Shown here: positions 25,752-56,681 of the stretch, piece after piece
Numbering within the stretch: the first letter of the stretch is position 1
Layout of the letters: every line of letters starts with the position of its first letter
Origin: Enterobacter asburiae
GTDB taxonomy: Bacteria > Pseudomonadota > Gammaproteobacteria > Enterobacterales > Enterobacteriaceae
DNA length: 64,000 nt
Assembly: GCF_007035645.1 (NCBI RefSeq)
Contig: NZ_AP019632.1
Location: 248,001 to 312,000, forward strand
Reading direction: 5' to 3'
Program-made: the position numbers and the translations under genes
The notes under the pieces: generated by a model
What the model saw: the letters and a program-made list of their open reading frames with translations, nothing else
Databases searched by the model: none
What the model was told of the DNA's origin: nothing

Positions 25752-25755
25752 AAAA

Positions 25756-25840
25756 GTCGGGTGGCGGCTTCGCCTTACCCGACCGATGAGTTAACAGGAC
25801 ATGGAGGCCCGGTAAGCGTTAGCGCCACCGGGCTTTTTTT
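25756..25840. repeat. Two REP hairpins at the ubiA/zntA border; the second also serves as a terminator
   Basis: The first unit has GTCGGGT/ACCCGAC arms (25756-25783). The second, GCCCGGT/ACCGGGC (25807-25833), is followed by seven Ts and can end ubiA transcription; the T-run reaches into the zntA stop codon. This is the left border of the block that lies elsewhere in E. coli. The second unit shares its core GGCCCGGTA with the REP at 56593. Confidence 0.85.
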
Positions 25841-28010
25841 ACCGGCGACGCAGCAGCCGGAGCGCGTTCGCCGTCACCAGCACCGTTGCCCCGGTATCCG
25901 CCAGCACCGCCAGCCACAATCCGGTCATGCCGAGCAGGGTCGTCACCAGGAAAATCCCTTTCAGCCCGAGCGCAATGCCGATGTTCTGACGGATGTTGGC
26001 CCGCGTCGCGCGCGCCAGGGCGATCGTCTGCGCCAGCCCGGTCAGGCGGTTGTGGGTCAGCGCCGCGTCGGCCGTTTCCAGCGCCACGTCGGTACCACTG
26101 CCCATTGCAATACCAATGGTGGACGCTTTCATCGCCGGGGCATCGTTAATCCCGTCACCGACCATCGCCAGCGGCGCGCGGGCGTTCAGCGCCGTCACGG
26201 CGATGACCTTATCCGCAGGCAACAGTCCGGCTTTAAACTCCAGCCCCAGCTCACCGGCAATCGCTGCCGCCGCGCGAGGGTTATCACCGGTAAGAATAAC
26301 GCCCTGCACGCCCAGCTTGTGCAGCGCCGCTACGGCTTCTTTGGCGTCATCGCGCAGGGTATCGCGCAGCGCCAGCATTCCCTTCGCCACGCCGTCCTGC
26401 ATAACGCTCACGACGGTTTGTCCGGTCTGTTCTAACGCCTCAACCTCTGGACTGGAAGACTTGCCTGCCGCGACAATCAGCACATTTTTACCGTCAACGG
26501 TGGCCTCAATCCCTGACCCGACCAGCGCCCGCTGGGCGGTTGCCGGAGGGATATTCAGCCCGCGCGACTGCGCTTCTCGCACAATCGCCTGCGCCAGCGG
26601 GTGAGTGGACCCCTGTTCAACGGCGGCGGCCAGTGTAAGCAGCTCATCTTCACTGGTTTCCTGAGGATACACGCCGGTCACCTGCGGCTTGCCCACGGTC
26701 AGCGTACCGGTTTTATCGAAGGCGATATGCTGAACCTGGCTCAGCTGCTCCAGCGCCGCGCCGCCCTTAATCAGCGCGCCGCGCCGCGCCGCCGCCGCCA
26801 GACCTGAGGTAATCGCCGCCGGGGTGGAAATCACCAGCGCGCACGGGCAGCCAATCAGCAGCAGCGTCAGCCCTTTATAAATCCAGCCCTCCCACGGGGC
26901 GCCAAAGAACAGCGGCGGGACGACGGTGACCAGCAGGGCAACCAGCATGATGGCAGGGGTATAAATCCGGCTGAAGCGATCGATAAAGCGTTCGACCGGC
27001 GCGCGGCGCTCTTCGGCCTCTTCAATCAGCTTCAGGATACGGTCGATGGCGCTGTCGCCCGGCTCGGAAAGCACGGTGAGCTGCACCAGACGGTCGACGC
27101 TGGTGGCGCCAGCAGGCACTTTTTCACCCGCGGCGCGCTCTACCGGAATGGATTCCCCGGTCAGGGCGCTTTCATCAAAGCTCGCGGTGGCGGTAAGCAG
27201 CGCGCCGTCGGCAGGCAGACGCCCCCCTGCGGCCACCTCAATCACGTCGCCCGGGCGCAGCGTATTGATGGCGACCGTTTCACGCGTGCCGTTTATCACG
27301 CGAGTGGCAGTTTCCGGCTTCAGCGCCATCAGCGCGCTGACCCCTTTACGCGCCCGGCTCGCCGCCCAGCCCTCAAGGCGTTCGCCGATTAAGAACAGCA
27401 GCAGCACCATCGCCGCTTCTGCCGTCGCGCCAATGAACAGCGCGCCGATCGCCGCCACGCTCATCAGCGTTTCGATGGCAAACCAGCTGCCGCTTTTCAT
27501 CAGGCGCAGCGCCTGACGGGCAATCGGGAACAGGCCGACCAGCGTGGTGGCGATAAACGCCAGATTGCCGAACGGATGGTTAATCTGCTCCAGCCCCCAG
27601 CTCAGGGCCATCATGATGATGAGGGTAATGAGCGGCAGGTTTTCTTTCAGGGAGGAGGCTTTTTCAACGGGCGCCGTTTCGCTGCGCAGGGTATAGCCCG
27701 CCTGGCTGACGGCAGCTTCAACCTGCTTGCTGACGTCGTTATCGGCGCTGACCAGCAGCTTTTCGGTGGCAAACAGCACCTGAACGTGGCTCACGCCCGG
27801 CACCTGCTTGACGGCGTTTTCCACCTTGCGGGCGCAGGCCGCGCAGTCCATGCCGTTGACGACCCAGCTGTAGCGGTTGCCGCTTTCAGGAAGGGGTTGA
27901 GTTGGCGTTTCGCACGCGCCTTCGCAGCAGCAGTCGTCTTTCGACGGAGCCGGGCTGAGCTTAAGTGCCGAGAATTGAGGGACTTTTTTTGGTATTTCTG
28001 GAGTCGACAT
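25839..28010 (-). CDS. zntA: ZntA, Zn(II)/Cd(II)/Pb(II)-exporting P-type ATPase
   Basis: Inner-membrane P1B-type ATPase that expels zinc, cadmium and lead. It has 723 residues. The N-terminal cytoplasmic part has a CCC...C cluster (27-33) and the metal-binding GMDCAAC at 53-59. The transmembrane metal site is CPC in IGCPCALVIS, the phosphorylated aspartate is in DKTGTLT, and MVGDGINDAPA is the hinge. The start at 28010 gives the E. coli N-terminus MSTPE. The further 23 codons upstream overlap the ZntR operator zone and were rejected. It is controlled by a typical MerR-family promoter. Confidence 0.97.
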   Translation of the reverse strand: MSTPEIPKKVPQFSALKLSPAPSKDDCCCEGACETPTQPLPESGNRYSWVVNGMDCAACARKVENAVKQVPGVSHVQVLFATEKLLVSADNDVSKQVEAAVSQAGYTLRSETAPVEKASSLKENLPLITLIIMMALSWGLEQINHPFGNLAFIATTLVGLFPIARQALRLMKSGSWFAIETLMSVAAIGALFIGATAEAAMVLLLFLIGERLEGWAASRARKGVSALMALKPETATRVINGTRETVAINTLRPGDVIEVAAGGRLPADGALLTATASFDESALTGESIPVERAAGEKVPAGATSVDRLVQLTVLSEPGDSAIDRILKLIEEAEERRAPVERFIDRFSRIYTPAIMLVALLVTVVPPLFFGAPWEGWIYKGLTLLLIGCPCALVISTPAAITSGLAAAARRGALIKGGAALEQLSQVQHIAFDKTGTLTVGKPQVTGVYPQETSEDELLTLAAAVEQGSTHPLAQAIVREAQSRGLNIPPATAQRALVGSGIEATVDGKNVLIVAAGKSSSPEVEALEQTGQTVVSVMQDGVAKGMLALRDTLRDDAKEAVAALHKLGVQGVILTGDNPRAAAAIAGELGLEFKAGLLPADKVIAVTALNARAPLAMVGDGINDAPAMKASTIGIAMGSGTDVALETADAALTHNRLTGLAQTIALARATRANIRQNIGIALGLKGIFLVTTLLGMTGLWLAVLADTGATVLVTANALRLLRRR

Positions 28011-28047
28011 GGCAGTCTCCGGCAATGATAATTTTCTCATTAACCGC

Positions 28048-28079
28048 AGCATACACTCTGGAGTCGACTCCAGAGTCAA
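28048..28079 (-). promoter_or_regulatory. zntA promoter with ZntR operator
   Basis: On the minus strand -35 TTGACT (28074-28079) and -10 TATGCT (28048-28053) are separated by 20 bp instead of 17. The spacer contains most of a perfect 22-bp palindrome at 28055-28076 with arms ACTCTGGAGTC/GACTCCAGAGT. This long-spacer layout is the mark of MerR-type activators such as ZntR, which untwist the DNA when metal binds. Confidence 0.93.
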
Positions 28080-28086
28080 GCGCTAT

Positions 28087-28713
28087 TTAGATATACAGCG
28101 AACGCACAATCAAGAAATGCCCGGCAAAGTAACACGCGGAGGCTATCGCGTTATCCGCCCGGAAGCGGCGGCGATAGTGGCTGCCCAGCCAGACGACATT
28201 CCCGATCAGCAGCAGCGCGGCGCCGAAGAACGCGGACATCGCCGGAGCGGTCGGACGGAAGAACCACAGTTCACCTGCCAGCCACACCATCACCAGCGTC
28301 ATGGCGATAAACGTACAGACCGGCAAACGCATCTCTTCCAGTCGTGACCAGATCACCGCAATCAGCAGGGCGCCAATCACCAGCAGTACCAGCGGCAGCG
28401 GCCAGAAGAAGGAGAGCGTCATCTGGCTGGCAAAGTAGATGGTATACAGCAGATGGGAGAGGAAGAACGCCCCAACGGCGTACAGCAGGCGCTGTCGCGG
28501 CAGCAGGGTTAAGGCATCGCCTATCAGGGATGCACACAGCCCGGCGAGCACCAGATAGCTGACGGCGTTGAACATCGGCGCTTGCCAGGCCAGCAGCAGT
28601 AGGAGCAACAGCGTGACCGGTTTAAACAACCAGCGCTGCCAGGTGGGACCGCGGTACGACGCATCGACATAAAGCCATGCGGAAAAACAGACAGCGATAA
28701 ATGACCAAAGCAT
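28087..28713 (-). CDS. yhhN: YhhN, lysoplasmalogenase-like membrane protein (TMEM86 family)
   Basis: An inner-membrane protein of 208 residues with about eight hydrophobic helices. The family core is [15 protein letters not shown] (about 62-76), whose acidic residues are conserved in lysoplasmalogenases, and it ends [10 protein letters not shown]. Animal homologues hydrolyse lysoplasmalogens; bacterial substrate is uncertain. It lies upstream of zntA on the same strand, but the zntA promoter starts only 8 nt after the yhhN stop codon, so zinc control should not affect yhhN. Confidence 0.9.
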
Positions 28714-28842
28714 ATTAACTCCCTGTATCTGTTAAGTCTGAATAATCAGTTTCTGATCCAGTGTAGTGACGCGGGCGGGCGTTTGGCAATGGCGGGGAAG
28801 GCAAGGTATCCTGAATTCCGCATAATCTTATGGGATTTTAGA

Positions 28843-29202
28843 ATGAGCAAGATGCCGCTTTTTTTCATTATCGTGGTGGCGATTATCGTCATTGCCGCCT
28901 CGTTCCGTTTCGTGCAGCAGCGCCGCGAGAAGGCGGATAACGATGCCGCGCCGCTGATGCAAAAGCGCGTGGTGGTGACCAACAAACGCGAGAAACCGCT
29001 CAACGACCGCCGCTCGCGCCAGCAGCAGGTGACGCCTGCGGGCACAGCAATGCGCTATGAAGCGAGCTTTAGGGCGGAAACGGGCGGCCTGGAGATGACC
29101 TTCCGCCTGGAGGCGCAGCAGTACCATCAGCTGACGGTGGGTGAGAAAGGAACGCTGAGCTACAAAGGGACGCGGTTTGAAGGGTTTGAACCGGAGCGGT
29201 AA
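28843..29202 (+). CDS. yhhM: YhhM, DUF2500 membrane-anchored protein
   Basis: A 119-residue protein matching E. coli YhhM. One N-terminal helix (LFFIIVVAIIVIAASF) precedes a soluble domain with REKADNDAAPLMQKRVVVTNKRE and YHQLTVGEKGTLSYKGTRF, which resembles a small beta-domain. The function is unknown. The start at 28843 was chosen by homology; an in-frame ATG 20 codons earlier gives a non-conserved tail. It is divergent from yhhN and convergent with yhhL. Confidence 0.88.
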   Translation: MSKMPLFFIIVVAIIVIAASFRFVQQRREKADNDAAPLMQKRVVVTNKREKPLNDRRSRQQQVTPAGTAMRYEASFRAETGGLEMTFRLEAQQYHQLTVGEKGTLSYKGTRFEGFEPER

Positions 29203-29206
29203 TTTT

Positions 29207-29289
29207 CCCCTCACCCCGGCCCTCTCCCACAGGGAGAGGGTGTAATCGTTCCCTCTCCCTGTGGGAGAGGGTTAGGGTGAGGGCATCAG
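29207..29289. repeat. REPIN-like palindromic repeat between yhhM and yhhL
   Basis: Two hairpins head to head: CCCTCTCCC-ACA-GGGAGAGGG and CCCTCTCCC-TGT-GGGAGAGGG, flanked by CCCTCACC on the left and TTAGGGTGAGGG on the right. They fill the spacer between the convergent genes yhhM and yhhL, and probably act as a two-way end for both transcripts. Confidence 0.85.
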
Positions 29290-29297
29290 GCCGCGCC

Positions 29298-29579
29298 TTA
29301 CTTCTTCACCTGCGCCTTAAACTTCTTCATCCACACCAGCAGTTCAAACACTCCGAAAATAAACACGCGCAGCTGCTGCCAGCCCGTCATCTGCGGGCCG
29401 TCTTTCGGCAGGCCGTTTTTCAGCATCACCATCTGCAGGGCGTGCATGAACGACGTGAAAATCAGCGCGACGTTAACGAAAATATTCATCGGACGCGGGA
29501 AGGGGTGTACCAGGTTGAGAATTAAAAACGCCCAGACGCCCAGCATCAGCAAACGTCCCAGGTTAATCAGTACCGGCAT
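29298..29579 (-). CDS. yhhL: YhhL, DUF1145 membrane protein
   Basis: A 93-residue inner-membrane protein with three predicted helices. The DUF1145 pattern NLVHPFPRPMNIFVNVALIF with a following MHALQMVMLK is present, and the C-terminus is basic (KKFKAQVKK). Function is unknown. Its start codon lies within the 3' end of rsmD (17-nt overlap), so translation is probably coupled. The start was chosen for the family N-terminus MPVLINLGRLL. Confidence 0.88.
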   Translation of the reverse strand: MPVLINLGRLLMLGVWAFLILNLVHPFPRPMNIFVNVALIFTSFMHALQMVMLKNGLPKDGPQMTGWQQLRVFIFGVFELLVWMKKFKAQVKK

Positions 29580-30165
29580 CGGAGCCTCCTTGTGCCTGAC
29601 GGTGATAAAGACGATAAGCGACCTGGCCGGCGACCTTTTCGCGGTGCAGATCCCAGTGGGCGGGAACCGGCGGTAAACCGTTTTCCACTTCGCTTTCAAC
29701 GTAAATTAGCGCGTCATCCGCCAGCCAGCCGTTTTGCTCAAGCAGGGATAACGTCTCTTCCAGCAGCCCCTTGCGGAACGGCGGATCGACAAACACCACG
29801 TTATGCGGCGTGCCTTTCTGCGCAAGAAAACTCAGCGTGTTGGTGTTCACGACTTTAGCGTTGCTCGCTTTCAGCGTCGCCAGATTTTGCTGCAGCGTCT
29901 GCGCAACGCCGCGCTCCATCTCCAGCAGCGTGGCGCTGGCGGCATAGCGCGACAGCGCTTCCAGGCCGAGCGCGCCGCTTCCGGCGAAGCAGTCCAGGCA
30001 GTGGGCGTCTACCATTGACGGGGCCAGCCAGTTAAACAGCGTCTCGCGCACGCGGTCGGTAGTAGGGCGTAAACCGGGGCTGTCCGGCACCGGTAATTTC
30101 CGGCCTCGCCACTGACCGCCGATAATACGAATTTGACCGGCCGGGGCGCGGTTGGGTTTCTTCAT
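29563..30165 (-). CDS. rsmD: RsmD, 16S rRNA m2G966 methyltransferase
   Basis: Methylates G966 of 16S rRNA in the assembled 30S subunit using SAM. It has 200 residues. The Rossmann SAM motif is LDCFAGSGALGLEALSR, the N-terminal recognition region is IRIIGGQWRGRKLPVPDSPGLRPTTDRVRETLFNWL, and the catalytic motif DPPF lies in VVFVDPPFRKG. It is upstream of yhhL and divergent from ftsY, as in E. coli. Confidence 0.96.
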   Translation of the reverse strand: MKKPNRAPAGQIRIIGGQWRGRKLPVPDSPGLRPTTDRVRETLFNWLAPSMVDAHCLDCFAGSGALGLEALSRYAASATLLEMERGVAQTLQQNLATLKASNAKVVNTNTLSFLAQKGTPHNVVFVDPPFRKGLLEETLSLLEQNGWLADDALIYVESEVENGLPPVPAHWDLHREKVAGQVAYRLYHRQAQGGSDAGTD

Positions 30166-30292: not shown

Positions 30293-31753
30293 ATGGCAAA
30301 ACAAAAAAAACGTGGCTTCTTTTCCTGGCTGGGCTTCGGTGAAAAAGAGCAAGAAACAGAACAGAAAACCGAAGAGCAACAAGCCGTTGAAGAGCAGTCA
30401 CAGCCTGAAACGCCTGTAGAAACCGCCGCGGTTGTCGAAGCGGAAGAAACGGCGCACAGCAAAGAAGAGATTGAATCCTTTGCACAAGAGGTGGTTGAGG
30501 TCACTGAACAGGTTCAGGAGAGCGAGAAGCCAGAACCGGTTATCGTTGAGGATATTACCGAAACGCCACAGGCCGTTATCGAGCACGAAGAGCTGCCGCT
30601 GCCGGAAGAGGTGAAAGCCGAAGAGGTTTCTGCCGAAGAGTGGCAGGCGGAAGCGGAAACCGTTGAAATTGTTGAGGCGGTGGAAGAAGAAGCGGCACTC
30701 GAGCCAGAGCTGACCGACGAAGAGCTGGAAGCCCAGGCGCTGGCGGCAGAAGCCGCGGAAGAGGCGATTATCGTCGTGCCGGTTGAAGAACAGCCGGAAG
30801 AAGAGAGCGTACAGGAGCAGGAAAAACCGACCAAAGAAGGTTTCTTCGCGCGCCTGAAGCGCAGCCTGCTCAAAACCAAAGAAAACTTAGGTTCCGGATT
30901 TATCAGTCTGTTCCGCGGCAAGAAGATCGACGACGATCTCTTCGAAGAGCTGGAAGAACAGCTGCTGATTGCGGACGTCGGCGTGGAAACCACCCGTAAG
31001 ATCATCGCCAATCTGACCGAAGGGGCGAGCCGCAAACAGCTGCGCGACGCCGAAGCGCTGTACGGTCTGCTGAAAGACGAGATGGGTGAAATTCTCGCAA
31101 AAGTTGACGAACCGCTTAATATTGAAGGCAAAACGCCATTTGTTATTCTGATGGTTGGCGTAAACGGCGTGGGTAAAACCACCACCATCGGCAAGCTGGC
31201 GCGTCAGTTCGAGCAGCAGGGCAAATCGGTGATGCTGGCGGCGGGCGATACCTTCCGCGCGGCAGCGGTTGAGCAGCTGCAGGTTTGGGGCCAGCGCAAC
31301 AACATTCCGGTGATTGCCCAGCATACCGGCGCGGATTCTGCGTCCGTGATCTTCGACGCCATCCAGGCAGCGAAGGCGCGCAACGTGGACGTGCTGATTG
31401 CCGATACCGCAGGGCGTTTGCAGAACAAATCGCACCTGATGGAAGAGTTGAAGAAAATCGTCCGCGTTATGAAGAAGCTGGACGAAGACGCACCGCATGA
31501 AATTATGCTGACCATTGATGCCAGCACCGGACAGAACGCCATCAGCCAGGCGAAGCTGTTTAATGAAGCGGTAGGACTGACGGGGATCGCGCTGACCAAG
31601 CTGGACGGCACCGCGAAAGGCGGGGTGATCTTCTCCGTGGCCGACCAGTTCGGCATTCCTATCCGTTACATCGGTGTGGGCGAGCGTATTGAGGATTTGC
31701 GTCCGTTTAAGGCGGACGACTTTATTGAGGCATTATTTGCCCGAGAGGACTAA
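30293..31753 (+). CDS. ftsY: FtsY, signal recognition particle receptor
   Basis: GTPase that docks SRP-ribosome complexes at the inner membrane and passes them to SecYEG. It has 486 residues. The acidic, Glu-rich A domain (about 15-185) varies between species, and a basic amphipathic patch (EGFFARLKRSLLKTKENLGSGF) starts the NG domain. The P-loop GVNGVGKT is at 289-296, followed by DTFRAAAVEQL, DTAGRLQNK and TKLDGTAKGG. ACTCCTCGCGG-side GAGGAG lies about 12 nt before the ATG. It is followed by ftsE after 2 nt (ftsYEX operon). Confidence 0.97.
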   Translation: MAKQKKRGFFSWLGFGEKEQETEQKTEEQQAVEEQSQPETPVETAAVVEAEETAHSKEEIESFAQEVVEVTEQVQESEKPEPVIVEDITETPQAVIEHEELPLPEEVKAEEVSAEEWQAEAETVEIVEAVEEEAALEPELTDEELEAQALAAEAAEEAIIVVPVEEQPEEESVQEQEKPTKEGFFARLKRSLLKTKENLGSGFISLFRGKKIDDDLFEELEEQLLIADVGVETTRKIIANLTEGASRKQLRDAEALYGLLKDEMGEILAKVDEPLNIEGKTPFVILMVGVNGVGKTTTIGKLARQFEQQGKSVMLAAGDTFRAAAVEQLQVWGQRNNIPVIAQHTGADSASVIFDAIQAAKARNVDVLIADTAGRLQNKSHLMEELKKIVRVMKKLDEDAPHEIMLTIDASTGQNAISQAKLFNEAVGLTGIALTKLDGTAKGGVIFSVADQFGIPIRYIGVGERIEDLRPFKADDFIEALFARED

Positions 31754-31755
31754 CA

Positions 31756-32421
31756 ATGATTCGCTTTGAACACGTCAGCAAGGCCTATCTCGGTGGGAGA
31801 CAAGCGCTGCAGGGGGTGACATTCCACCTGCAGCCGGGCGAGATGGCATTCCTGACCGGCCATTCCGGCGCGGGGAAAAGTACCCTGCTCAAGCTTATCT
31901 GTGGGATCGAGCGGCCAAGCGCCGGGAAAATCTTTTTCGGCGGCCATGAGATCAGCCGCCTGAAAAACCGCGAAGTGCCGTTCCTGCGTCGTCAGATCGG
32001 CATGATTTTCCAGGATCACCACCTGCTGATGGATCGCACCGTTTTCGATAACGTGGCCATTCCGCTGATTATTGCCGGCGCCAGCTATGACGATATCCGC
32101 CGCCGCGTTTCTGCGGCGCTGGATAAGGTCGGGCTGCTGGACAAAGCGAAGAACTTCCCGATCCAGCTCTCCGGCGGTGAACAGCAGCGCGTGGGCATCG
32201 CCCGCGCGGTGGTGAACAAGCCTGCCGTACTGCTGGCGGATGAACCAACCGGTAACCTGGACGATGCCCTGTCCGAAGGGATTTTGCGTCTGTTTGAGGA
32301 ATTTAACCGCGTAGGAGTCACCGTATTGATGGCGACGCACGACATCGGGCTCATTTCCCGTCGTTCGTACCGCATGCTGACCCTGAGCGACGGGCATTTG
32401 CACGGAGGCCACGGTGAATAA
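31756..32421 (+). CDS. ftsE: FtsE, cell-division ABC ATPase
   Basis: Cytoplasmic ATPase of FtsEX, which activates septal peptidoglycan hydrolysis through EnvC and helps divisome assembly. It has 221 residues: Walker [10 protein letters not shown] at 35-43, signature LSGGEQQR, Walker [12 protein letters not shown] and ATHDIGL. It begins 2 nt after ftsY and its 3' end overlaps ftsX by 8 nt, so the three genes are transcribed together and FtsE and FtsX are translationally coupled. Confidence 0.97.
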
Positions 32422-33469
32422 GCGTGATGCAATAAACCAGATTCGGCAGTTCGGGAACCGGTTTGACCGTTTCCGTAAGCCGCAGGGCGGTGGTGACGGC
32501 AATCGTAATGCGCCGAAGCGCCAGAAGGCCGCGCCAAAACCGGCCTCCCGTAAAACCAACGTGTTTAACGAGCAGGTGCGCTACGCCTTCCACGGCGCGC
32601 TGCAGGACCTGAAAAGCAAACCGCTGGCGACGTTCCTGACGGTGATGGTGATCGCCATCTCCCTGACGCTGCCAAGCGTCTGCTATATGGTCTATAAAAA
32701 CGTCAACCAGGCGGCCTCACAGTATTATCCGTCCCCGCAGATCACGGTCTATATGGATAAAGCGCTCGACGATAACGCCGCCGCGCAGGTGGTCGGGCAA
32801 ATCCAGGCCGAGCAGGGCGTGGAGAAGGTCAACTATCTCTCCCGTGAAGACGCGCTGGGCGAGTTCCGTAACTGGTCTGGCTTTGGCGGCGCGCTGGATA
32901 TGCTCGAAGAGAACCCGCTGCCCGCCGTGGCGGTGGTGATCCCGAAGCTGGATTTCCAGGGGACCGATTCGCTTAACACCCTGCGCGATCGCATCACGCG
33001 CATTAAGGGCATTGATGAAGTGCGCATGGACGACAGCTGGTTTGCGCGCCTTGCTGCCCTGACCGGGCTGGTAGGACGCGTCGCGGCGATGATTGGCGTG
33101 CTGATGGTGGCGGCGGTCTTCCTCGTCATCGGTAACAGCGTGCGCCTGAGCATCTTTGCCCGTCGCGATACCATTAACGTGCAGAAACTGATTGGTGCGA
33201 CGGATGGTTTCATCCTCCGACCGTTCCTTTACGGTGGCGCATTGCTCGGTTTTTCCGGTGCATTTCTTTCACTGATATTGTCAGAAATTTTGGTGATGCG
33301 GCTCTCTTCTGCCGTGACTGAAGTGGCGCAGGTTTTCGGAACGAAGTTTGATATCAGTGGCTTAGGCTTCGATGAGTGTCTGTTGCTGCTGCTGGTTTGT
33401 TCGATGATTGGGTGGGTGGCAGCCTGGCTGGCAACCGTTCAACATTTACGTCACTTTACTCCCGACTAA
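32414..33469 (+). CDS. ftsX: FtsX, cell-division ABC membrane subunit
   Basis: Inner-membrane partner of FtsE. It has 351 residues and four helices, with a basic cytoplasmic N-terminus ([17 protein letters not shown]). The first helix is [20 protein letters not shown]. The large periplasmic domain that binds EnvC spans about 95-220. Three C-terminal helices end in [13 protein letters not shown] was chosen as start because it gives the conserved [14 protein letters not shown]. It lies inside the last codons of ftsE, whose GGAGG serves as the ribosome-binding site. Confidence 0.96.
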
Positions 33470-36012: not shown

Positions 36013-36177
36013 TTATCATATATTCATTTCAAATTAGCTATTCCAAAATCATAAAAATCGGGTATGTTTTAGCAGAGTATGCTGAAAAAGCGCGGACAGC
36101 ACACCTATAACTGACATAAAGCGCTGCACAACAACATCACAACAATCGTAATAACCATAATAATGGGGAATCTCAGG

Positions 36178-37405: not shown

Positions 37406-37421
37406 ACAGTGGAGAATGTAG

Positions 37422-37449
37422 GCCGGGTAAGGCGCAGCCGCCACCCGGC
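37422..37449 (+). repeat. REP hairpin between livJ and panM
   Basis: GCCGGGT and ACCCGGC arms enclose GGCGCAGCC, followed by TTTCTTTT. It lies just before the end of the convergent panM gene and, with the ERIC element, fills the whole livJ-panM spacer. It can serve as a plus-strand terminator. Confidence 0.8.
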
Positions 37450-37455
37450 TTTCTT

Positions 37456-44965: not shown

Positions 44966-44985
44966 AATACCTACAGAGCAAACCT

Positions 44986-46715: not shown

Positions 46716-46716
46716 G

Positions 46717-48530: not shown

Positions 48531-48891
48531 GCATACTGCCATTCGACTGCGGCGGCAGCATGTGCTGCTGTCCGCTGCCTGACGACGTCATTCCTCCTAA
48601 CATCCCGCCGTTTTTATTCGGCAGCGGCTGCTCGCGCACCTGCCCCTGCTGCACGCGCTGGGTGTTGGCGTTCATCTGATTTTGCAGGCTTTGCTGCTGC
48701 ATCTGGGTCTGCGTTTTAAGCTGCTGATTAAGCATTCCTTTCTGCTGCTGTTGCTGGCTCATCATCTCCGTCTGCATACGCTGCTGGCTCGGGATAACGT
48801 AACCCTGCTGGTTCGGGTTGTTCAGGGTGTTGAGTGGCTGTGCGAGCGCGGCAAACGGGATCAGCGCCGTAAGGATCCATAAGCGTTTCAT
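48514..48891 (-). CDS. yhhA: YhhA, Gln-rich exported protein (DUF2756)
   Basis: A 125-residue protein with signal peptide [17 protein letters not shown]. The mature part is low-complexity: [28 protein letters not shown], a glutamine/methionine-rich stretch (about 45-80), and [18 protein letters not shown]. The function is unknown. The second ATG (48891) was chosen because GGAGG is 8 nt upstream, while the first is only 2 nt from it, and it gives the E. coli N-terminus. It overlaps ugpQ tail to tail. It is shorter than the E. coli protein by about 20 residues in the C-terminal repeats. Confidence 0.85.
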
Positions 48892-49014
48892 TGTCATTTC
48901 CTCCTTTTGAGGTCTTTCTTAAGTTTACCCCGATTTCACCATGACGATGATTTTTTAGGAGTTGTGAACCAGGCTTAAGCGGGGAATATGGATCCCTTCA
49001 CCTGGAGAACAATA

Positions 49015-50760
49015 ATGATGAAACCAACGTTTTTGCGCTGGGTCGCCATCGCCGCGCTGATGGCAGGCGGTACATTTAGCGTGGCGGCCAACCCGCCAGC
49101 GGCGCCTCCGGTCTCTTACGGCGTGGAGGAAGATGTTTTTCATCCCGTGCGGGCAACCCATGGCATGGTGGCGTCGGTGGATGCGCTGGCAACCAAAGTG
49201 GGCGTCGATATTCTCAGGCAGGGCGGTAACGCGGTGGATGCAGCGGTCGCCGTCGGCTATGCGCTGGCGGTGACGCATCCGCAGGCGGGGAACCTGGGCG
49301 GCGGCGGCTTTATGATGCTGCGTACCAAAGACGGCAAAACCACCGCCATCGATTTCCGCGAAATGGCGCCTTCTCAGGCGTCCCGCGATATGTTCCTCGA
49401 CGATCAGGGTAACCCTGACAGCAAAAAATCCCTGACTTCGCACCTCGCCACCGGCACGCCGGGCACCGTTGCGGGCTTCTCGCTGGCGCTGGAAAAATAC
49501 GGCACGATGCCGCTGAACAAGGTGGTGCAGCCTGCCATCAAGCTGGCGCGCGACGGCTTTGTGGTAAACGATGCGCTGGCGGACGATCTCAAGACCTATG
49601 GCAGCGAAGTCATTCCGAATCACGAAAACAGCAAGGCCATCTTCTGGAAAGACGGTGAGCCCCTGAAGAAGGGCGATAGGCTGGTGCAGAAGAACCTCGC
49701 CAAAAGCCTGGAGCTGATTGCGGAGCACGGTCCGGACGCCTTCTACAAAGGGGCAATTGCCGACCAGATTGCGGAAGAGATGCAAAAGAACGGCGGGCTC
49801 ATCACCAAAGCGGATCTTGCGGAATACAAGGCGGTGGAGCGCGAGCCGATTAGCGGTACCTATCGCGGATACGAGGTCTTCTCCATGCCGCCGCCGTCTT
49901 CCGGTGGGATCCACATCGTGCAGATCCTCAATATTCTCGAAAACTTCGATATGCATAAGTTCGGCTTCGGCAGCGCGGACGCCATGCAGGTGATGGCGGA
50001 AGCGGAAAAACGCGCCTACGCCGACCGGTCGGAATATCTCGGCGATCCGGACTTCGTGAAGGTGCCGTGGCAGGCGCTGACCAACAAGGCGTATGCTAAA
50101 TCCATTGCCGATCAGATCGACATCAACAAGGCTAAACCGTCGAGCGAGATCCGCCCCGGCAAGCTGGCGCCGTATGAAAGCAACCAGACCACCCACTTCT
50201 CGGTGGTGGATAAAGACGGTAACGCGGTGGCGGTGACGTACACGCTCAACACCACCTTCGGCACCGGGATTGTGGCGGGCAACAGCGGTATTCTGCTGAA
50301 CAACGAGATGGATGACTTCTCTGCCAAACCGGGCGTGCCGAACGTCTACGGGCTGGTGGGCGGCGATGCGAATGCAGTAGGGCCTAAGAAACGTCCGCTG
50401 TCTTCTATGTCGCCCACCATTGTCGTGAAAGACGGGAAAATCTGGCTGGTGACCGGCAGCCCTGGCGGGAGCCGTATTATCACTACCGTGCTGCAGATGG
50501 TGGTGAACAGCATCGACTTTGGGATGAACGTCGCCGAAGCGACCAACGCACCGCGTTTCCATCACCAGTGGCTGCCGGACGAGCTGCGCGTCGAGAAGGG
50601 CTTTAGCCCGGATACGCTCAAGCTGCTTGAACAGCGCGGGCAAAAAGTGGCGGTGAAAGAGGCGATGGGCAGCACCCAGAGCATTATGGTGGGGCCGGAC
50701 GGGGCGCTGTTTGGCGCGTCGGACCCGCGTTCGGTAGATGATTTGTCGGCGGGGTATTAA
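49015..50760 (+). CDS. ggt: Ggt, gamma-glutamyltranspeptidase
   Basis: Periplasmic Ntn-hydrolase that cleaves gamma-glutamyl bonds of glutathione. It is made as one chain and self-cleaves into large and small subunits. It has 581 residues with a signal peptide (MMKPTFLRWVAIAALMAGGTFSVAA). The small subunit begins at the catalytic Thr392 in NQTTHFSVVDKDG. GNLGGGGFM, SSMSPTIV and GSPGGSRIITTVLQ are substrate-site motifs. CTGGAG lies about 9 nt before the double ATG; either ATG (49015, 49018) could be used. Confidence 0.97.
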   Translation: MMKPTFLRWVAIAALMAGGTFSVAANPPAAPPVSYGVEEDVFHPVRATHGMVASVDALATKVGVDILRQGGNAVDAAVAVGYALAVTHPQAGNLGGGGFMMLRTKDGKTTAIDFREMAPSQASRDMFLDDQGNPDSKKSLTSHLATGTPGTVAGFSLALEKYGTMPLNKVVQPAIKLARDGFVVNDALADDLKTYGSEVIPNHENSKAIFWKDGEPLKKGDRLVQKNLAKSLELIAEHGPDAFYKGAIADQIAEEMQKNGGLITKADLAEYKAVEREPISGTYRGYEVFSMPPPSSGGIHIVQILNILENFDMHKFGFGSADAMQVMAEAEKRAYADRSEYLGDPDFVKVPWQALTNKAYAKSIADQIDINKAKPSSEIRPGKLAPYESNQTTHFSVVDKDGNAVAVTYTLNTTFGTGIVAGNSGILLNNEMDDFSAKPGVPNVYGLVGGDANAVGPKKRPLSSMSPTIVVKDGKIWLVTGSPGGSRIITTVLQMVVNSIDFGMNVAEATNAPRFHHQWLPDELRVEKGFSPDTLKLLEQRGQKVAVKEAMGSTQSIMVGPDGALFGASDPRSVDDLSAGY

Positions 50761-50866: not shown

Positions 50867-51355
50867 TCACTTCATTCGCGCCATATAATACGCGTCCACA
50901 TACTCGCCGTTGCGCAGGGCATAGCGTTTGCCGGTGCCTTCAATTTCGAACCCGTGTTTTTTGTACACCGCAATCGCCGGTTCGTTATCGACAAATACCG
51001 TCAGCTCAATGCGGTCAACGCGCAGCCAGTTATCGCACATATCAATCATGGTGCGCATCAGAGCGCTGGCAACGCCCCGGTTTTGCCACTGCGCGCCGAC
51101 ACAAATCCCAAAATCAGCCACATGGCTGCGGCGCGGGCGTTGCGCGACGACGATGCACAGATGGCCGGCAACATGACCGTCTATGCAGGCGACGAGCTGC
51201 TTGATTCCGGGCTGGTCGGATAGCCGTTCTTGCCACATTTGCTCAGAGGGATGAGGAACCTGTAGTGTGTTGTGGTACACCTCCGGCTGGGCGTGGATCT
51301 GACGAATGGCGTCATAATCTTTCGGTTCCGCATGGCGTATCACTATCTCACTCAT
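50867..51355 (-). CDS. yhhY: YhhY, GNAT-family N-acetyltransferase
   Basis: A 162-residue GNAT acetyltransferase. The E. coli protein (AaaT) acetylates some free amino acids such as phenylalanine and methionine. The acetyl-CoA site is FGICVGAQWQNRGVASALMRTMI (motif A, Q/RxxGxA), and ELTVFVDNEPAIAVYKKHGFEIEG is motif B. The start MSEIVIRHAEPKDYDAIRQIHAQPEVY is conserved. It is divergent from ryhB/yhhX. Confidence 0.93.
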   Translation of the reverse strand: MSEIVIRHAEPKDYDAIRQIHAQPEVYHNTLQVPHPSEQMWQERLSDQPGIKQLVACIDGHVAGHLCIVVAQRPRRSHVADFGICVGAQWQNRGVASALMRTMIDMCDNWLRVDRIELTVFVDNEPAIAVYKKHGFEIEGTGKRYALRNGEYVDAYYMARMK

Positions 51356-51476: not shown

Positions 51477-51571
51477 GCATTCAGGAAGACCGCTACGGGA
51501 ACCTGAAAGCACGACATTGCTCACATTGCTTCCAGTATTACTTTAGCCAGCTTTTAGCTGGCTTTTTTTTT
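51477..51571 (+). ncRNA. ryhB: RyhB small RNA
   Basis: Hfq-dependent small RNA made under iron limitation, which silences mRNAs of iron-using proteins. The core GCACGACATTGCTCACATTG and CTTCCAGTATTACTT are as in E. coli, including the seed region. The 5' stem (CAGGAAGACC...GGGAACCTG) is present with changes in its loop. The terminator AGCCAGC-TTTTA-GCTGGCT (51545-51563) is followed by a T-run. The 5' end is placed at 51477 by comparison with E. coli GCGATCAGG. Position between yhhY and yhhX is conserved. Confidence 0.96.
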
Positions 51572-51611: not shown

Positions 51612-52649
51612 ATGACACTACATTGCGCATTTATTGGATTTGGTAAAAGTACGACCCGCTACCACCTGCCGTATGTTCTCAACCGTAAAGACAGCTGGCA
51701 CGTCGCGCACATCTTCCGCCGCCGCGCGAAGCCGGAAGAGCAATCCCCGCAGTATTCTCATATCCATTTCACCAGCGATCTTGATGAAGTACTTAACGAT
51801 CCGCAGGTCAAACTGGTTGTTGTCTGCACCCACGCCGACAGCCATTTTGACTATGCGAAACGCGCGCTGGAAGCGGGTAAAAACGTGCTGGTGGAAAAGC
51901 CGTTCACCCCGACCATCGCCGAAGCAAAAGCGCTGTTCGCGCTGGCGAAAAGTAAAGGCCTGACCGTTACGCCGTATCAAAACCGTCGCTTTGACAGCTG
52001 CTTCCTGACGGCGAAAAAGGCGATTGAAAGCGGCAAGCTGGGCGACATTGTGGAAATCGAAAGCCACTTCGATTACTACCGTCCGGTGGCGGAAACCCAA
52101 CCCGGCCTGCCGCAGGACGGCTCGTTCTATGGTCTGGGCGTGCATACGATGGACCAGATCATCTCTCTGTTTGGCCGACCGGACCACGTGACGTATGACA
52201 TCCGCAGCCTGCGTAACAAAGCCAACCCGGACGACACCTTTGAAGCGCAGCTGTTCTACGGCGACCTGAAGGCCATCGTCAAAACCAGCCATCTGGTGAA
52301 AATCGACTATCCGAAATTTATCGTTCACGGCACCAAAGGATCGTTCATTAAGTACGGCATCGACCAACAGGAGACCAGCCTGAAGGCCAACATCATGCCG
52401 GGTGAACCGGGCTTTGCGGCGGATAATTCCGTGGGCGTGCTGGAGTATGTGAACGATGAGGGCGTAACGGTCAGGGAAGAGCTGAAACCGGAAATTGGCG
52501 ACTATGGCCGCGTCTACGATGCGCTGTATGAAACTCTCACAACTAGCGCGCCGAATTACGTCAAGGAATCTGACGTTCTGACCAACCTGGAAATCCTCGA
52601 GCGGGCCTTTGAGCAGGCTTCTCCTGCCACGGTAACCCTCGCGAAATAA
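51612..52649 (+). CDS. yhhX: YhhX, Gfo/Idh/MocA-family oxidoreductase
   Basis: A 345-residue cytoplasmic NAD(P)-dependent oxidoreductase of unknown substrate. The Rossmann start is IGFGKSTTRYHLPYVL, VVVCTHADSHFDYAKRALEAGKNVLVEKPFTPT contains the EKP signature, and YGLGVHTMDQIISLFG has the conserved His of the active site. Length equals E. coli. AAAAGGACTGAGCC precedes the ATG. It begins 41 nt after the ryhB terminator. Confidence 0.95.
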   Translation: MTLHCAFIGFGKSTTRYHLPYVLNRKDSWHVAHIFRRRAKPEEQSPQYSHIHFTSDLDEVLNDPQVKLVVVCTHADSHFDYAKRALEAGKNVLVEKPFTPTIAEAKALFALAKSKGLTVTPYQNRRFDSCFLTAKKAIESGKLGDIVEIESHFDYYRPVAETQPGLPQDGSFYGLGVHTMDQIISLFGRPDHVTYDIRSLRNKANPDDTFEAQLFYGDLKAIVKTSHLVKIDYPKFIVHGTKGSFIKYGIDQQETSLKANIMPGEPGFAADNSVGVLEYVNDEGVTVREELKPEIGDYGRVYDALYETLTTSAPNYVKESDVLTNLEILERAFEQASPATVTLAK

Positions 52650-52771
52650 GCAAAAACGGCTCCTCTGCGCTTGTTCATAATTTTTGAACAGAGGAGTCAA
52701 TTTTCACCCTCTATGATCCCAGGCGGTTTGCGTCCACACTTACTCCATCGAAACGAACTGAGGGTGAAACA

Positions 52772-53467
52772 ATGATCTACTTACGCAAAGCAAACGAACG
52801 TGGTCACGCGAATCATGGCTGGCTGGACTCATGGCATTCATTCTCGTTTGCCGACTACTACGACCCGAACTTCATGGGCTTCTCCGCACTGCGCGTGATT
52901 AACGACGACGTGATTGATGCAGGCCAGGGCTTCGGTACCCACCCGCACAAAGACATGGAAATCCTGACCTATGTGCTGGAAGGGGCGGTGGAACACCAGG
53001 ACAGCATGGGCAACAAAGAGCAGGTTCCGGCGGGCGAGTTCCAGATTATGAGCGCGGGTACCGGGGTGCGTCACTCCGAGTACAACCCGAGCAAAACGGA
53101 AAAACTGCACCTGTATCAAATCTGGATCATTCCAGAAGAGACCGGCATCACGCCGCGCTACGAGCAGCGCCGCTTCGACGCGAAACAGGGCAAACAGCTG
53201 GTGCTGTCCCCGGATGCGCGTGAAGGTTCTCTGAAGGTGCATCAGGATATGGAACTGTACCGCTGGGCGCTGGCGAAAGACGAACAGTCTGTGCACCAGA
53301 TTGCCGCCAACCGCCGCGTCTGGATCCAGGTGGTGAAAGGAGAAGTGTCCATCAACGGCACCAAAGCGACAACCGCCGATGGCCTCGCCGTCTGGGATGA
53401 GCAGGCGCTCTCCGTGCATGCCGACAGCGAAAGTGAAATTCTGCTGTTTGACCTGCCGCCGGTGTAA
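52772..53467 (+). CDS. yhhW: YhhW, pirin-like quercetin 2,3-dioxygenase
   Basis: A bicupin of the pirin family, 231 residues as in E. coli, where it shows quercetinase activity. The metal ligands sit in FGTHPHKDMEILTYVLEGAVEHQDSMG (the H-x-H and the distant His/Glu of the N-terminal cupin). MSAGTGVRHSEYNPSKTEKLHLYQIWI is the pirin signature. The physiological substrate is unknown. The upstream spacer holds a hairpin with CTCCTCTG/CAGAGGAG arms (52660-52696). Confidence 0.94.
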   Translation: MIYLRKANERGHANHGWLDSWHSFSFADYYDPNFMGFSALRVINDDVIDAGQGFGTHPHKDMEILTYVLEGAVEHQDSMGNKEQVPAGEFQIMSAGTGVRHSEYNPSKTEKLHLYQIWIIPEETGITPRYEQRRFDAKQGKQLVLSPDAREGSLKVHQDMELYRWALAKDEQSVHQIAANRRVWIQVVKGEVSINGTKATTADGLAVWDEQALSVHADSESEILLFDLPPV

Positions 53468-53483
53468 TAAATCATAAATAAAT

Positions 53484-53520
53484 GCCCATCCTTCCCTTTG
53501 ACAGGGGAAGGATGGGCTTT
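53484..53520 (+). terminator. yhhW intrinsic terminator
   Basis: GCCCATCCTTCCC pairs perfectly with GGGAAGGATGGGC (13 bp) around an 8-nt loop, 17 nt after yhhW, followed by the short tract TTTGT. The T-run is weak but the stem is very stable. Confidence 0.75.
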
Positions 53521-53568
53521 GTCCGTGATAAACTGAGCAAATCTCTCACTTCAAGATTTCTCAGGACG

Positions 53569-54564
53569 ATGAAAAAGAAACGCCCCGTACTTCAGGATGT
53601 CGCCGATCGCGTCGGTGTGACCAAAATGACGGTCAGCCGTTTTTTACGTAACCCGGAACAGGTTTCCGTGGCGTTGCGTGGCAAGATTGCCGCGGCCCTT
53701 GATGAACTGGGTTATATCCCCAACCGCGCACCCGATATTCTCTCCAATGCGACCAGCCGTGCGGTGGGCGTCCTGCTTCCTTCCCTGACCAACCAGGTTT
53801 TCGCCGAAGTTTTGCGCGGCATTGAAAGCGTCACCGATGCTTTTGGCTATCAGACCATGCTCGCCCACTACGGGTACAAGCCGGAACTGGAAGAGGAACG
53901 TCTTGAATCGATGCTTTCCTGGAACATCGACGGCCTGATTTTAACCGAACGTACCCACACTGCCCGCACGCTCAAAATGATTGAAGTGGCCGGTATCCCG
54001 GTGGTGGAGCTGATGGACAGCCAGTCGCCGTGCCTCGATATCGCCGTGGGGTTCGATAACTTCGAAGCGGCGCGCCAGATGACGGCGGCCATCATTGCCC
54101 GTGGGCATCGTCATATCGCCTATCTGGGTGCGCGTCTTGATGAACGTACTATCATCAAACAGAAGGGATACGAGCAGGCGATGCTCGACGCGAACCTAAC
54201 CCCGTACAGCGTGATGGTGGAGCAGTCCTCTTCCTATACGTCGGGTATTGAGCTGATGCGCCAGGCACGACGCGAGTATCCGCAACTGGACGGTATTTTC
54301 TGTACCAACGATGACCTTGCGGTCGGCGCGGCGTTTGAGTGTCAGCGTCTGGGGCTCAAGATCCCGGATGATATGGCGATTGCCGGTTTCCACGGCCACG
54401 ACATTGGCCAGGTGATGGAGCCGCGTCTGGCGAGCGTCCTGACCCCGCGTGAACGTATGGGCCGCATTGGCGCAGAACGCCTGCTGGCGCGCATTCGTGG
54501 CGAGACGGTTACCCCAAAAATGTTAGATTTAGGTTTCACCTTGTCACCGGGTGGATCTATTTGA
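53569..54564 (+). CDS. gntR: GntR, gluconate repressor (LacI family)
   Basis: LacI-family repressor of the GntI gluconate genes, released by gluconate or its phosphate. It has 331 residues as in E. coli. The DNA-binding head is LQDVADRVGVTKMTVSRFLRNPEQVS (8-33) and the hinge helix is YIPNRAPDILS. The periplasmic-binding-type core has GVLLPSLTNQVFAEVLRGIE and AIAGFHGHDIGQ. Start 53569 (MKKKRPVLQDV) follows TCAGGACG; a longer frame crosses the yhhW terminator and was rejected. It lies just upstream of gntKU. Confidence 0.97.
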   Translation: MKKKRPVLQDVADRVGVTKMTVSRFLRNPEQVSVALRGKIAAALDELGYIPNRAPDILSNATSRAVGVLLPSLTNQVFAEVLRGIESVTDAFGYQTMLAHYGYKPELEEERLESMLSWNIDGLILTERTHTARTLKMIEVAGIPVVELMDSQSPCLDIAVGFDNFEAARQMTAAIIARGHRHIAYLGARLDERTIIKQKGYEQAMLDANLTPYSVMVEQSSSYTSGIELMRQARREYPQLDGIFCTNDDLAVGAAFECQRLGLKIPDDMAIAGFHGHDIGQVMEPRLASVLTPRERMGRIGAERLLARIRGETVTPKMLDLGFTLSPGGSI

Positions 54565-54573
54565 ACTGACAAA

Positions 54574-54671
54574 TTTGAAGTAGCTCACACTTATTCACTT
54601 CGCGCACGTTTGGATATTGCTTCTCTTTTGCCCCGGCAGGACAATGTTACCGATAACTGTTACCCGTAACA
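54574..54671 (+). promoter_or_regulatory. gntKU promoter with CRP and GntR sites
   Basis: A CRP site TTTGA-AGTAGC-TCACA (54574-54589). Promoter TTGCTT (54617-54622), 17 nt, GACAAT (54640-54645). Two GntR-type operators follow: ATGTTA-CCGA-TAACTG (54644-54659) covering the -10, and TGTTAC-CC-GTAACA (54658-54671, fully palindromic). The layout predicts gluconate induction and glucose repression, as in E. coli. Confidence 0.85.
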
Positions 54672-54690
54672 ATTGACTGAGGGACACCCT

Positions 54691-55218
54691 TTGAGCACGA
54701 CTAATCACGATCACCACGTCTACGTCCTGATGGGCGTTTCCGGTAGCGGGAAATCAGCCGTAGCCAGCGAAGTGGCGCATCAACTCCAGGCTGCGTTCCT
54801 TGATGGCGACTTCCTCCATCCGCGCAGCAACATCATGAAAATGGCCTCCGGCGAGCCGCTGAACGACGACGACCGCAAACCGTGGTTGCAGGCGCTGAAT
54901 GACGCCGCGTTCGCCATGCAGCGCACCAACAAAGTCTCCCTGATTGTCTGCTCTGCGCTGAAAAAAACCTACCGCGACCTGCTGCGCGACGGTAACCCGA
55001 ACCTCTCTTTCATCTACCTGAAAGGGGATTTCGAGGTGATTGAAAGCCGTCTGAAGGCGCGTAAAGGTCACTTCTTCAAAACCCAGATGCTGGTGACGCA
55101 GTTCGAAGCGCTGCAGGAGCCGGGTGAAGATGAGAAAGATGTCTTAGTGGTTGATATCGATCAGTCACTGGAAGGTGTTGTTGCCAGCACCATCGAGGTC
55201 ATTAATAAAAGGCAGTAA
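54691..55218 (+). CDS. gntK: GntK, thermoresistant gluconokinase
   Basis: Phosphorylates gluconate to 6-phosphogluconate for the Entner-Doudoroff and pentose phosphate routes. It has 175 residues. Walker A is GVSGSGKS (15-22), and FLDGDFLHPRSNIMKMASGEPLNDDDRKPWL is the substrate region. The start is TTG at 54691: it gives the E. coli N-terminus MSTTNHDHHVYVLMG and has GAGGG 9 nt upstream. The alternative ATG at 54673 would place six extra residues over the likely leader. Confidence 0.94.
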   Translation: MSTTNHDHHVYVLMGVSGSGKSAVASEVAHQLQAAFLDGDFLHPRSNIMKMASGEPLNDDDRKPWLQALNDAAFAMQRTNKVSLIVCSALKKTYRDLLRDGNPNLSFIYLKGDFEVIESRLKARKGHFFKTQMLVTQFEALQEPGEDEKDVLVVDIDQSLEGVVASTIEVINKRQ

Positions 55219-55221
55219 GTT

Positions 55222-56562
55222 TTGAGTACATTAACGCTAGTTTTGACAGCAGTGGGTTCCGTGTTGCTGCTGCTGTTTTTAGTGATGAAGGCGCGTATGC
55301 ACGCTTTTGTCGCTTTGATGGTGGTTTCTATAGGTGCAGGTCTCTTTTCCGGTATGCCGCTCGACAAGATCGCCGCGACGATGGAAAAAGGGATGGGCGG
55401 CACGCTGGGCTTCCTGGCGATTGTGGTCGCCCTTGGCGCGATGTTTGGCAAGATTTTGCACGAGACGGGCGCGGTCGACCAGATTGCCGTCAAGATGCTG
55501 AAATCCTTCGGCCACAGCCGCGCGCACTACGCGATTGGTCTGGCTGGCCTGATTTGCGCGCTGCCGCTGTTCTTCGAAGTGGCCGTAGTGCTGCTGATAA
55601 GCGTCGCGTTCTCCATGGCGCGCCATACCGGCACTAACCTCGTGAAGCTGGTTATTCCGCTGTTTGCGGGCGTGGCGGCGGCCGCAGCGTTCCTGCTGCC
55701 TGGGCCTGCGCCGATGCTGCTGGCGTCTCAGATGCACGCTGACTTTGGCTGGATGATCCTGATTGGCCTGTGCGCGGCAATCCCGGGGATGATTATTGCC
55801 GGTCCGCTGTGGGGCAACTTCATCAGCCGTTACGTTGAGCTACACATTCCGGATGACGTCACCGAGCCGCACCTGGGCGAGGGCAAAATGCCGTCCTTCG
55901 GCTTCAGCCTGTCGCTGATCCTGCTCCCGCTGGTTCTCGTGGGTCTGAAAACCATCGCCGCGCGCTTTGTGCCGGTGGGTTCCAGCGCCTACGAATGGTT
56001 CGAGTTCATCGGTCATCCGTTCACGGCGATCCTGGTGGCCTGTCTGGTGGCGATTTACGGCCTGGCGATGCGTCAGGGAATGCCGAAAGACCGGGTGATG
56101 GAGATCTGCGGTGCCGCGCTGCAGCCTGCGGGTATTATCCTGCTGGTGATCGGCGCTGGCGGCGTGTTCAAGCAGGTGCTGGTGGATTCCGGCGTGGGCC
56201 CGGCTCTGGGCGAAGCGCTGACCGGGATGGGCCTGCCGATTGCGGTCACCTGCTTCGTGCTGGCCGCGGCGGTGCGCATCATCCAGGGTTCCGCAACCGT
56301 GGCGTGCTTAACCGCCGTGGGTCTGGTGATGCCGGTGATTGAACAGCTGAACTACTCCGGTGCGCAGATGGCCGCGCTGTCTATCTGTATCGCGGGCGGT
56401 TCGATTGTGGTCTCTCACGTTAACGACGCGGGCTTCTGGCTGTTCGGTAAATTTACCGGCGCCACCGAAGCGCAAACCCTGAAAACCTGGACGCTGATGG
56501 AAACCATCCTTGGCACAACGGGCGCCATTGTCGGGATGATTGCTTTCACACTGCTGAGCTGA
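55222..56562 (+). CDS. gntU: GntU, low-affinity gluconate transporter
   Basis: Inner-membrane gluconate permease of the GntP family. It has 446 residues and about 12-14 helices. Conserved stretches are GGTLGFLAIVVALGAMFGKILHETGA, CALPLFFEVAVVLLISVAF and GSATVACLTAVGLVMP. The start is TTG, three bases after the gntK stop codon; it gives the E. coli N-terminus (STLTLVLTAVGSVLLLLFLVMKARMHAF). It forms an operon with gntK. The reading frame is intact. It is the last gene of the displaced block. Confidence 0.95.
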   Translation: MSTLTLVLTAVGSVLLLLFLVMKARMHAFVALMVVSIGAGLFSGMPLDKIAATMEKGMGGTLGFLAIVVALGAMFGKILHETGAVDQIAVKMLKSFGHSRAHYAIGLAGLICALPLFFEVAVVLLISVAFSMARHTGTNLVKLVIPLFAGVAAAAAFLLPGPAPMLLASQMHADFGWMILIGLCAAIPGMIIAGPLWGNFISRYVELHIPDDVTEPHLGEGKMPSFGFSLSLILLPLVLVGLKTIAARFVPVGSSAYEWFEFIGHPFTAILVACLVAIYGLAMRQGMPKDRVMEICGAALQPAGIILLVIGAGGVFKQVLVDSGVGPALGEALTGMGLPIAVTCFVLAAAVRIIQGSATVACLTAVGLVMPVIEQLNYSGAQMAALSICIAGGSIVVSHVNDAGFWLFGKFTGATEAQTLKTWTLMETILGTTGAIVGMIAFTLLS

Positions 56563-56592
56563 ATGCGGTGATTTAACAAGGCTCAAAAATAA

Positions 56593-56677
56593 GGCCCGGT
56601 AGCGTTAACGCTTACCGGGCCTTTATATTATGCAGAACGCCAGGCCGGGTCAGGTGAAACCACCAACCTGGCTTTTT
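56593..56677. repeat. REP hairpin and terminator at the gntU/plsB border
   Basis: GGCCCGGT/ACCGGGCC arms (56593-56621) form a near-perfect palindrome with TTAACGC in the centre. A second hairpin with CCAGG...CCTGG arms (56641-56670) is followed by CTTTTTC and can end gntU transcription. This is the right border of the block that lies elsewhere in E. coli; the core matches the REP at 25807. Confidence 0.85.
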
Positions 56678-56681
56678 CACA

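Follow-up and report, generated by a model that had tools for sequence, protein, structure and literature searches.

A gene block carrying ftsYEX and rpoH has changed chromosome arms at nearly unchanged distance from the replication origin in Enterobacter asburiae and its relatives

Symmetric interreplichore translocation, in which a block of genes changes chromosome arm but remains as far from the replication origin (oriC) as before, with its leading-strand placement preserved, was described by Khedkar and Seshasayee (2016; PMC4889656; see also PMC9584773), who surveyed about 250 genome pairs statistically. Closely related are symmetric inversions along the axis from origin to terminus (ori-ter axis; PMC5850607). 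Enterobacter is named in the main text of neither PMC4889656 nor PMC5850607. Here we describe a block of this kind in a stretch of 64,000 nucleotides from Enterobacter asburiae (GCF_007035645.1, contig NZ_AP019632.1, positions 248,001 to 312,000), called the window in the following, in which the genes zntA to gntU, among them ftsY, ftsEX and rpoH, lie between ubiA and plsB. In contrast to the survey, a single block is traced together with its empty old site and its place in a tree; and while the steps proposed below are ori-ter inversions, their net result is a block left on the other arm and not one inversion. The block almost certainly owes its position to a single ancestral interreplichore translocation. 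The case is new, although the kind of rearrangement is already known; judged from search listings, the open-licence literature offers no account of this translocation.

Alignment of E. coli K-12 proteins to the window (expectation value, E, 1e-10) yielded the order ubiC-ubiA (24372-25742, + strand), the zntA...gntU block (25839-56562), and then plsB (- strand)-dgkA-lexA-dinF-yjbJ-zur. A sequence-only reading of the window had placed a block in intact E. coli order between ubiA and plsB, and the protein map bears this out. According to the K-12 annotation zntA...gntU is located between yhgN and tusA (3.576-3.609 Mb) and plsB directly follows ubiA (4.254 Mb). The features are listed below, with genes from zntA to plsB assigned by K-12 protein match.

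24882-25751, + strand: ubiA, 91% identical to K-12 UbiA and in place after ubiC; last gene before the inserted block
25752-25838, no strand: new junction 1, the ubiA-zntA spacer, with a pair of palindromes like repetitive extragenic palindromes (REP)
25839-28079, - strand: zntA (similarity begins at 28010), first gene of the moved block
28087-28713, - strand: yhhN
28843-29199, + strand: yhhM
29310-30165, - strand: yhhL and rsmD
30293-33469, + strand: ftsY-ftsE-ftsX
33721-34578, + strand: rpoH, heat-shock sigma factor
36163-37278, + strand: livJ
37462-37839, - strand: panZ
38204-43099, + strand: livKHMGF
43538-48530, + strand: ugpBAECQ
48526-48891, - strand: yhhA
48988-50760, + strand: ggt
50867-51355, - strand: yhhY
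51505-51570, + strand: RyhB small RNA, moved with the block (Rfam RF00057, 83.9 bits)
51612-53467, + strand: yhhX and yhhW
53482-56562, + strand: gntR-gntK-gntU (gntU match to 56559), final genes of the moved block
56563-56681, no strand: new junction 2, the gntU-plsB spacer, which aligns in part to the canonical ubiA-plsB spacer of genome G010
56682-59165, - strand: plsB (similarity ends at 59102), the original right-hand neighbour of ubiA

The genome from which the window was taken (G000; chromosome C1, 4,639,748 bases) also retains the empty old site. There asd-yhgN (C1:4275930-4277805) adjoins tusA-yhhQ-dcrB (4277964-4279665) at the place where K-12 has the block. Since the old neighbours yhgN and tusA, which the earlier reading had suggested to look for, are joined at the old site, the block has moved. 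Three sequence probes were run over 61 genomes of the genus and revealed the derived arrangement in 14 of them (G000, G064, G018, G013, G066, G065, G080, G012, G020, G075, G003, G008, G002 and G070). Both new junctions are present in all 14, with zntA after ubiA (3 kb apart in G002 and G070) and gntU abutting plsB, and yhgN and tusA are contiguous in 13, the old site of G065 being divided between two contigs. The other 47 genomes have the canonical order; in 45 of these plsB is a neighbour of ubiA, no more than about 4 kb away, and separate from gntU, and G011 and G021 are without a plsB match and have gntU beside asd. Because 14 genomes carry the arrangement, eight of which have the loci together on a single contig of chromosome size, it is a real rearrangement and no assembly error. 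Repeats at both borders and at the old site are what might lead an assembler astray, but given these counts and the reciprocal empty old site, there is next to no chance that an artefact or a chimeric contig produced the arrangement.

Across Enterobacterales, plsB lies downstream within about 5 kb in 75 of 80 named ubiA loci, and this order reaches Yersinia, Pantoea, Erwinia, Serratia and Providencia. zntA follows ubiA in two of the 80, Lelliottia nimipressuralis 51 and Enterobacter chuandaensis 090028 (L021 and L024, the same genomes as G020 and G070 of the genus sample), and neither gene was found in three, of which L036 and L082 end too early and L053 has other genes. In a draw of 119 genomes of the family, G000 included, 70 matched ubiA, zntA or both at E 1e-60, and no genome besides G000 had the two genes within 5 kb of each other. 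The assumption that the E. coli order is ancestral and the window lineage derived is upheld by the canonical majorities in the genus and among the named loci. The opposite polarity, with the window order ancestral and the E. coli order derived, found no support in the genus and Enterobacterales comparisons; the prevalence of plsB after ubiA speaks against it, as does the fact that the window arrangement forms one nested clade on flanking genes, and we consider it practically refuted.

Phylogenies were computed with FastTree for 41 (or 40) genomes. The 14 derived genomes form one clade in a nine-gene tree (support 1.0), in a tree of the old-site genes asd, yhgN, tusA, yhhQ and dcrB (0.94) and in a tree of the new-site genes ubiA and plsB (0.999). 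Since the nine-gene tree and the trees of both flanks agree in this, the translocation was almost certainly one event, which preceded the split between Lelliottia and E. chuandaensis.

At the time of its move the block was longer than it is in the window today. Of 27 canonical genomes examined, 20, K-12 among them, have dctPQM, an operon for a tripartite ATP-independent periplasmic (TRAP) transporter, between zntA and tusA, with the layout zntA> <dctM <dctQ <dctP <tusA in 18 and inverted in two (G010, G017); it was not found in the fetched zntA-tusA stretch of the other seven. In G002 and G070 the order is ubiA> dctP> dctQ> dctM> <zntA, that is, an inverted block with dctPQM still attached and oriented as an inverted zntA-dctMQP segment would be, while the other 12 derived genomes have no dctPQM match at E 1e-40. 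Because the operon is kept in two derived genomes and without match in the others, it moved as part of a block of about 34 kb and was deleted later in the sublineage of the window; 31-34 kb is the size range of this stretch of housekeeping genes. The REP-like pair at 25752-25838 belongs to the state after this loss, and a REP-mediated break at the present ubiA-zntA border was rejected as the original breakpoint since dctPQM stands there in G002 and G070. That both breaks fall between convergent genes, as had been proposed from the sequence, holds for the present-day borders and not for the ancestral break on the zntA side, which lay between the start of dctP and the end of tusA, where the genes are not convergent.

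Matches to mnmG-oriC-mioC placed oriC in 28 genomes. Of these, 19 were measured together with K-12 as canonical chromosomes (G063 was left out), and in 19 of the resulting 20 the block and the ubiA/plsB site are found on opposite arms, and in 18 their distances from oriC come within about 65 kb of each other (exceptions G014 and G007). In G000 the old site lies about 332 kb out from oriC; the block is now found on the other arm, at a distance of 304-333 kb. Old site and block are on opposite arms in all eight derived chromosomes measured. The midpoint of the block in G000 went from about 348 to 319 kb, a shift of about 29 kb; over the eight derived genomes the shift is 3 to 68 kb, calculated from hand-entered coordinates and with 16 kb added to the present old site to give the former position. 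Sites drawn at random on the opposite arm would come as near to the mirror position as in G000 in about 1.25% of cases, a figure obtained post hoc. Moreover, 22 of the 29 block genes tallied, rpoH and ftsYEX included, are on the + strand, which is the leading strand of the present arm by oriC position, and the leading-strand genes stay leading because the block was inverted and also switched arms. In sum, the arms were switched, the leading strands kept and the distance from oriC barely changed, as in symmetric interreplichore translocation; the suggestion that the distance of the block from the origin had probably changed is not supported.

How did the block reach the other arm? The segment gntU...zntA-dctMQP, formerly flanked by yhgN and tusA, took up a new position between ubiA and plsB in inverted orientation. 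Two successive inversions that span oriC could achieve this, and we rate the chance that they did as about even. Starting from yhgN/gntU...dctP/tusA...oriC...ubiA/plsB, one inversion would have its ends at yhgN/gntU and at ubiA/plsB and span oriC. A second, likewise spanning oriC, would break the newly formed yhgN-ubiA junction again and separate tusA from dctP. The product would be yhgN-tusA...oriC...ubiA-(inverted block)-plsB, with everything restored save the block, which would lie flipped beside plsB; the reverse sequence of the two inversions would lead to the same end state. The order and orientation observed, yhgN-tusA, ubiA-(inverted dctP/zntA) and (inverted gntU)-plsB, are those of this product. 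Other large changes spanning oriC are seen in the genus, in G006, G016 and G007 (described below), and speak for such a route. The near-mirror position and the retained strand would be explained because both inversions span oriC, and at no time would an essential gene be absent, ftsY and rpoH being essential. It is possible that the second exchange went through BoxC/triplex repeats, one of which is found in the scar at the old site.

In E. coli, Holder and colleagues (2015; PMC4666352) linked BoxC/TMECO loci, which form intrastrand triplexes, to instability. They report that the motifs number more than 300 in some strains of Enterobacter and list a copy at K-12 3,608,684-3,608,719, which by K-12 gene limits is the zntA-tusA spacer. 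The changes they describe are mostly small, and exchange between two distant motifs is discussed there only as possible in principle, whereas here a BoxC stands at the edge of a 34-kb move, in which its part is that of a candidate. All 13 derived genomes whose old site is contiguous have a BoxC-like core in the yhgN-tusA spacer. The copy of G000 (C1:4277853-4277897) has no mismatch to the 45-base pattern CCCTCTCCC-NNN-GGGAGAGGG-NN-GGGGTGAGGGCATCAGGCCGCA and fits the published motif CCCTCNCCC-N3-6-GGGNGAGGG-N3-GGGNGAGGG (PMC4666352). Throughout the genome of G000 the 45-base pattern occurs 98 times at up to three mismatches (reversed control, 0) and the palindromic core 175 times at up to one mismatch (control, 0). 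In the long-form scars of G000, G003 and G008 some 40-odd bases to the left of BoxC are like the bases that follow yhgN in canonical yhgN-gntU spacers, which gives such a scar the look of a hybrid between the two former bounding spacers of the block. When the two bounding spacers were compared within each of 12 canonical genomes, BoxC pairs were found in direct orientation for G021 and, by a narrow margin, G025; those of G016, G032 and G006 are inverted, and G009 is mixed. A BoxC exchange may have made the scar; as its established origin it was rejected, because the long left arm is found in only 3 of the 13 scars and the canonical pairs vary.

At the new site, junction 2 aligns from 56580 onwards to the REP pair that G010 has in its canonical ubiA-plsB spacer, and therefore that break lay near the ubiA end; for the first 17 bases of this gntU-plsB spacer no origin was found. 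The spacer of junction 1 has parts that match at least 38 other places in the G000 genome. We take the palindromes at the junctions to be REP or bacterial interspersed mosaic elements (BIME).

Several findings sit badly with so orderly a history. The short-form scars, which make up 10 of the 13 and include those of the basal G002 and G070, have the BoxC within about 10 bases of the yhgN stop, and this BoxC is indistinguishable from the copy beside tusA in many canonical genomes; such a scar can as well be yhgN joined to a tusA-side spacer that brought its own BoxC. No BoxC pair was seen in the bounding spacers of six of the 12 canonical genomes, the sister G014 included. The ubiA-dctP junction is without recognisable repeat, and 171 of 1000 shuffles were as good as the best BoxC remnant there. 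On the inversion route one junction would have to break a second time, and because no intermediate, with yhgN beside ubiA or tusA beside plsB, occurs among the 61 genus genomes, the route is one that we infer, although the absence of an intermediate does not exclude it. Furthermore, the tree of the block genes zntA and gntU unites the 14 derived with six canonical genomes under a common ancestor (support 0.88). Longer alignments, in two sets with three and eight derived genomes, group the derived genomes on the plsB side and the tusA side, give low support for their clade on the asd side (0.674 and 0.0), and place G008 outside the derived group in the block tree; in the region upstream of ubiA (eight derived genomes) it is G003 and G020 that fall outside. 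Since these failures are not confined to the block they are read as later recombination, but they do count against a perfectly clean history. A foreign donor for the block was considered on 1-kb windows and trees and not adopted, as the conflict with the nine-gene tree is also seen upstream of ubiA.

Essential genes would likewise never have been missing if a second copy of the block, received from a sibling cell or a related species by transduction or conjugation, had been inserted inverted at ubiA/plsB and the native copy deleted later, possibly between BoxC repeats. The conflict between the block trees and the nine-gene tree would suit such a course, as would the direct BoxC repeats at both canonical block ends in G021 and, narrowly, G025. 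However, none of the 61 genomes has two copies, direct pairs are a minority among the 12 canonical genomes, the tree conflict extends beyond the block, and the near-mirror position and the kept strand would be left without a reason; we therefore regard copying followed by deletion as improbable. The single BoxC in the scar would also agree with excision of the block as a circle in one step, perhaps between direct BoxC repeats, and reinsertion at the ubiA-plsB site in the same lineage. A circle with ftsY and rpoH and no known replication origin would have to reintegrate immediately, and position and strand would be matters of luck (about 1%, post hoc), which makes this course quite unlikely. 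An interreplichore translocation by two inversions would account for position and strand alike.

The block provides a single-origin, polarised case in which core genes including ftsY, ftsEX and rpoH changed arms while oriC distance and strand were kept, which agrees with the idea that selection protects the position on the ori-ter axis and not the gene neighbourhood. No integrase or transposase is among the block genes matched to K-12, which are all core genes and were not subjected to a dedicated family search, and the window contains no tRNA; nothing among these features marks the block as a mobile element or genomic island. Host-specific Salmonella reportedly undergo large rearrangements between dispersed repeats, namely the ribosomal operons (rrn), whereas any repeat involved here measures about 50 bp. 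It could be imagined that BoxC/triplex repeats, with about 100 full copies in G000, serve as short recombination substrates that relocate core segments with essential genes, that selection keeps the moves to mirror positions and that the block is a fixed product of this process, a speculation we would not expect to hold; the BoxC at the edge of the old site does offer a testable breakpoint candidate. The translocation is a clade marker for Lelliottia and the E. chuandaensis group, and the loss of dctPQM marks a Lelliottia-type sublineage.

Some further observations concern the window and its comparison with E. coli. The K-12 block genes yhhZ and yrhB gave no match in the window by protein alignment; yrhA and yrhD were not among the genes tried. 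metH is unremarkable, with 93% identity to K-12 in frame. In a collection of 5426 E. coli genomes, 5375 match the window query 24000-30000, at a median of two places, and in none does a single place cover at least 80% of it; among 5377 matching records one has its best place at 99% identity or more, and the others are at 60-80%. Window positions 36840-37839 (end of livJ, spacer, panZ) had a match of at least 500 bases in only one of ten relatives, G008.

Gene order varies in other ways among the relatives. In G006 and G016 oriC is oriented to ubiA as in K-12 and unlike in the other 26 of the 28 genomes, a sign of oriC-spanning inversions in the genus, in one direction or the other. In G007 the whole asd-block-tusA region (C1:522956-562492) is found on the arm of ubiA, about 147-175 kb further from oriC, which is a separate large rearrangement. 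In G148 (C6:99226-121119), G193 (C1) and G186 (C1), which belong to other genera, ubiA and zntA are about 20, 115 and 200 kb apart. Their strands relative to each other are those seen in the window, but zntA lies upstream of ubiA, which may be the result of independent moves. G079 (L186) is canonical, but its sole zntA match at E 1e-60 lies on another contig (C6:26994-29241), about 28 kb upstream of ubiA; gntU and tusA are in their canonical places. The ubiA-plsB spacer is a recurrent insertion site among relatives. It measures 1.5 to 5 kb in several of them (L030:6740-10874, L083:10867-16017 and G005, which is L196), and in L053 (10870-20861), where plsB was not found within 10 kb of ubiA, the sizes of the open reading frames suggest, by size only, a fimbrial operon.

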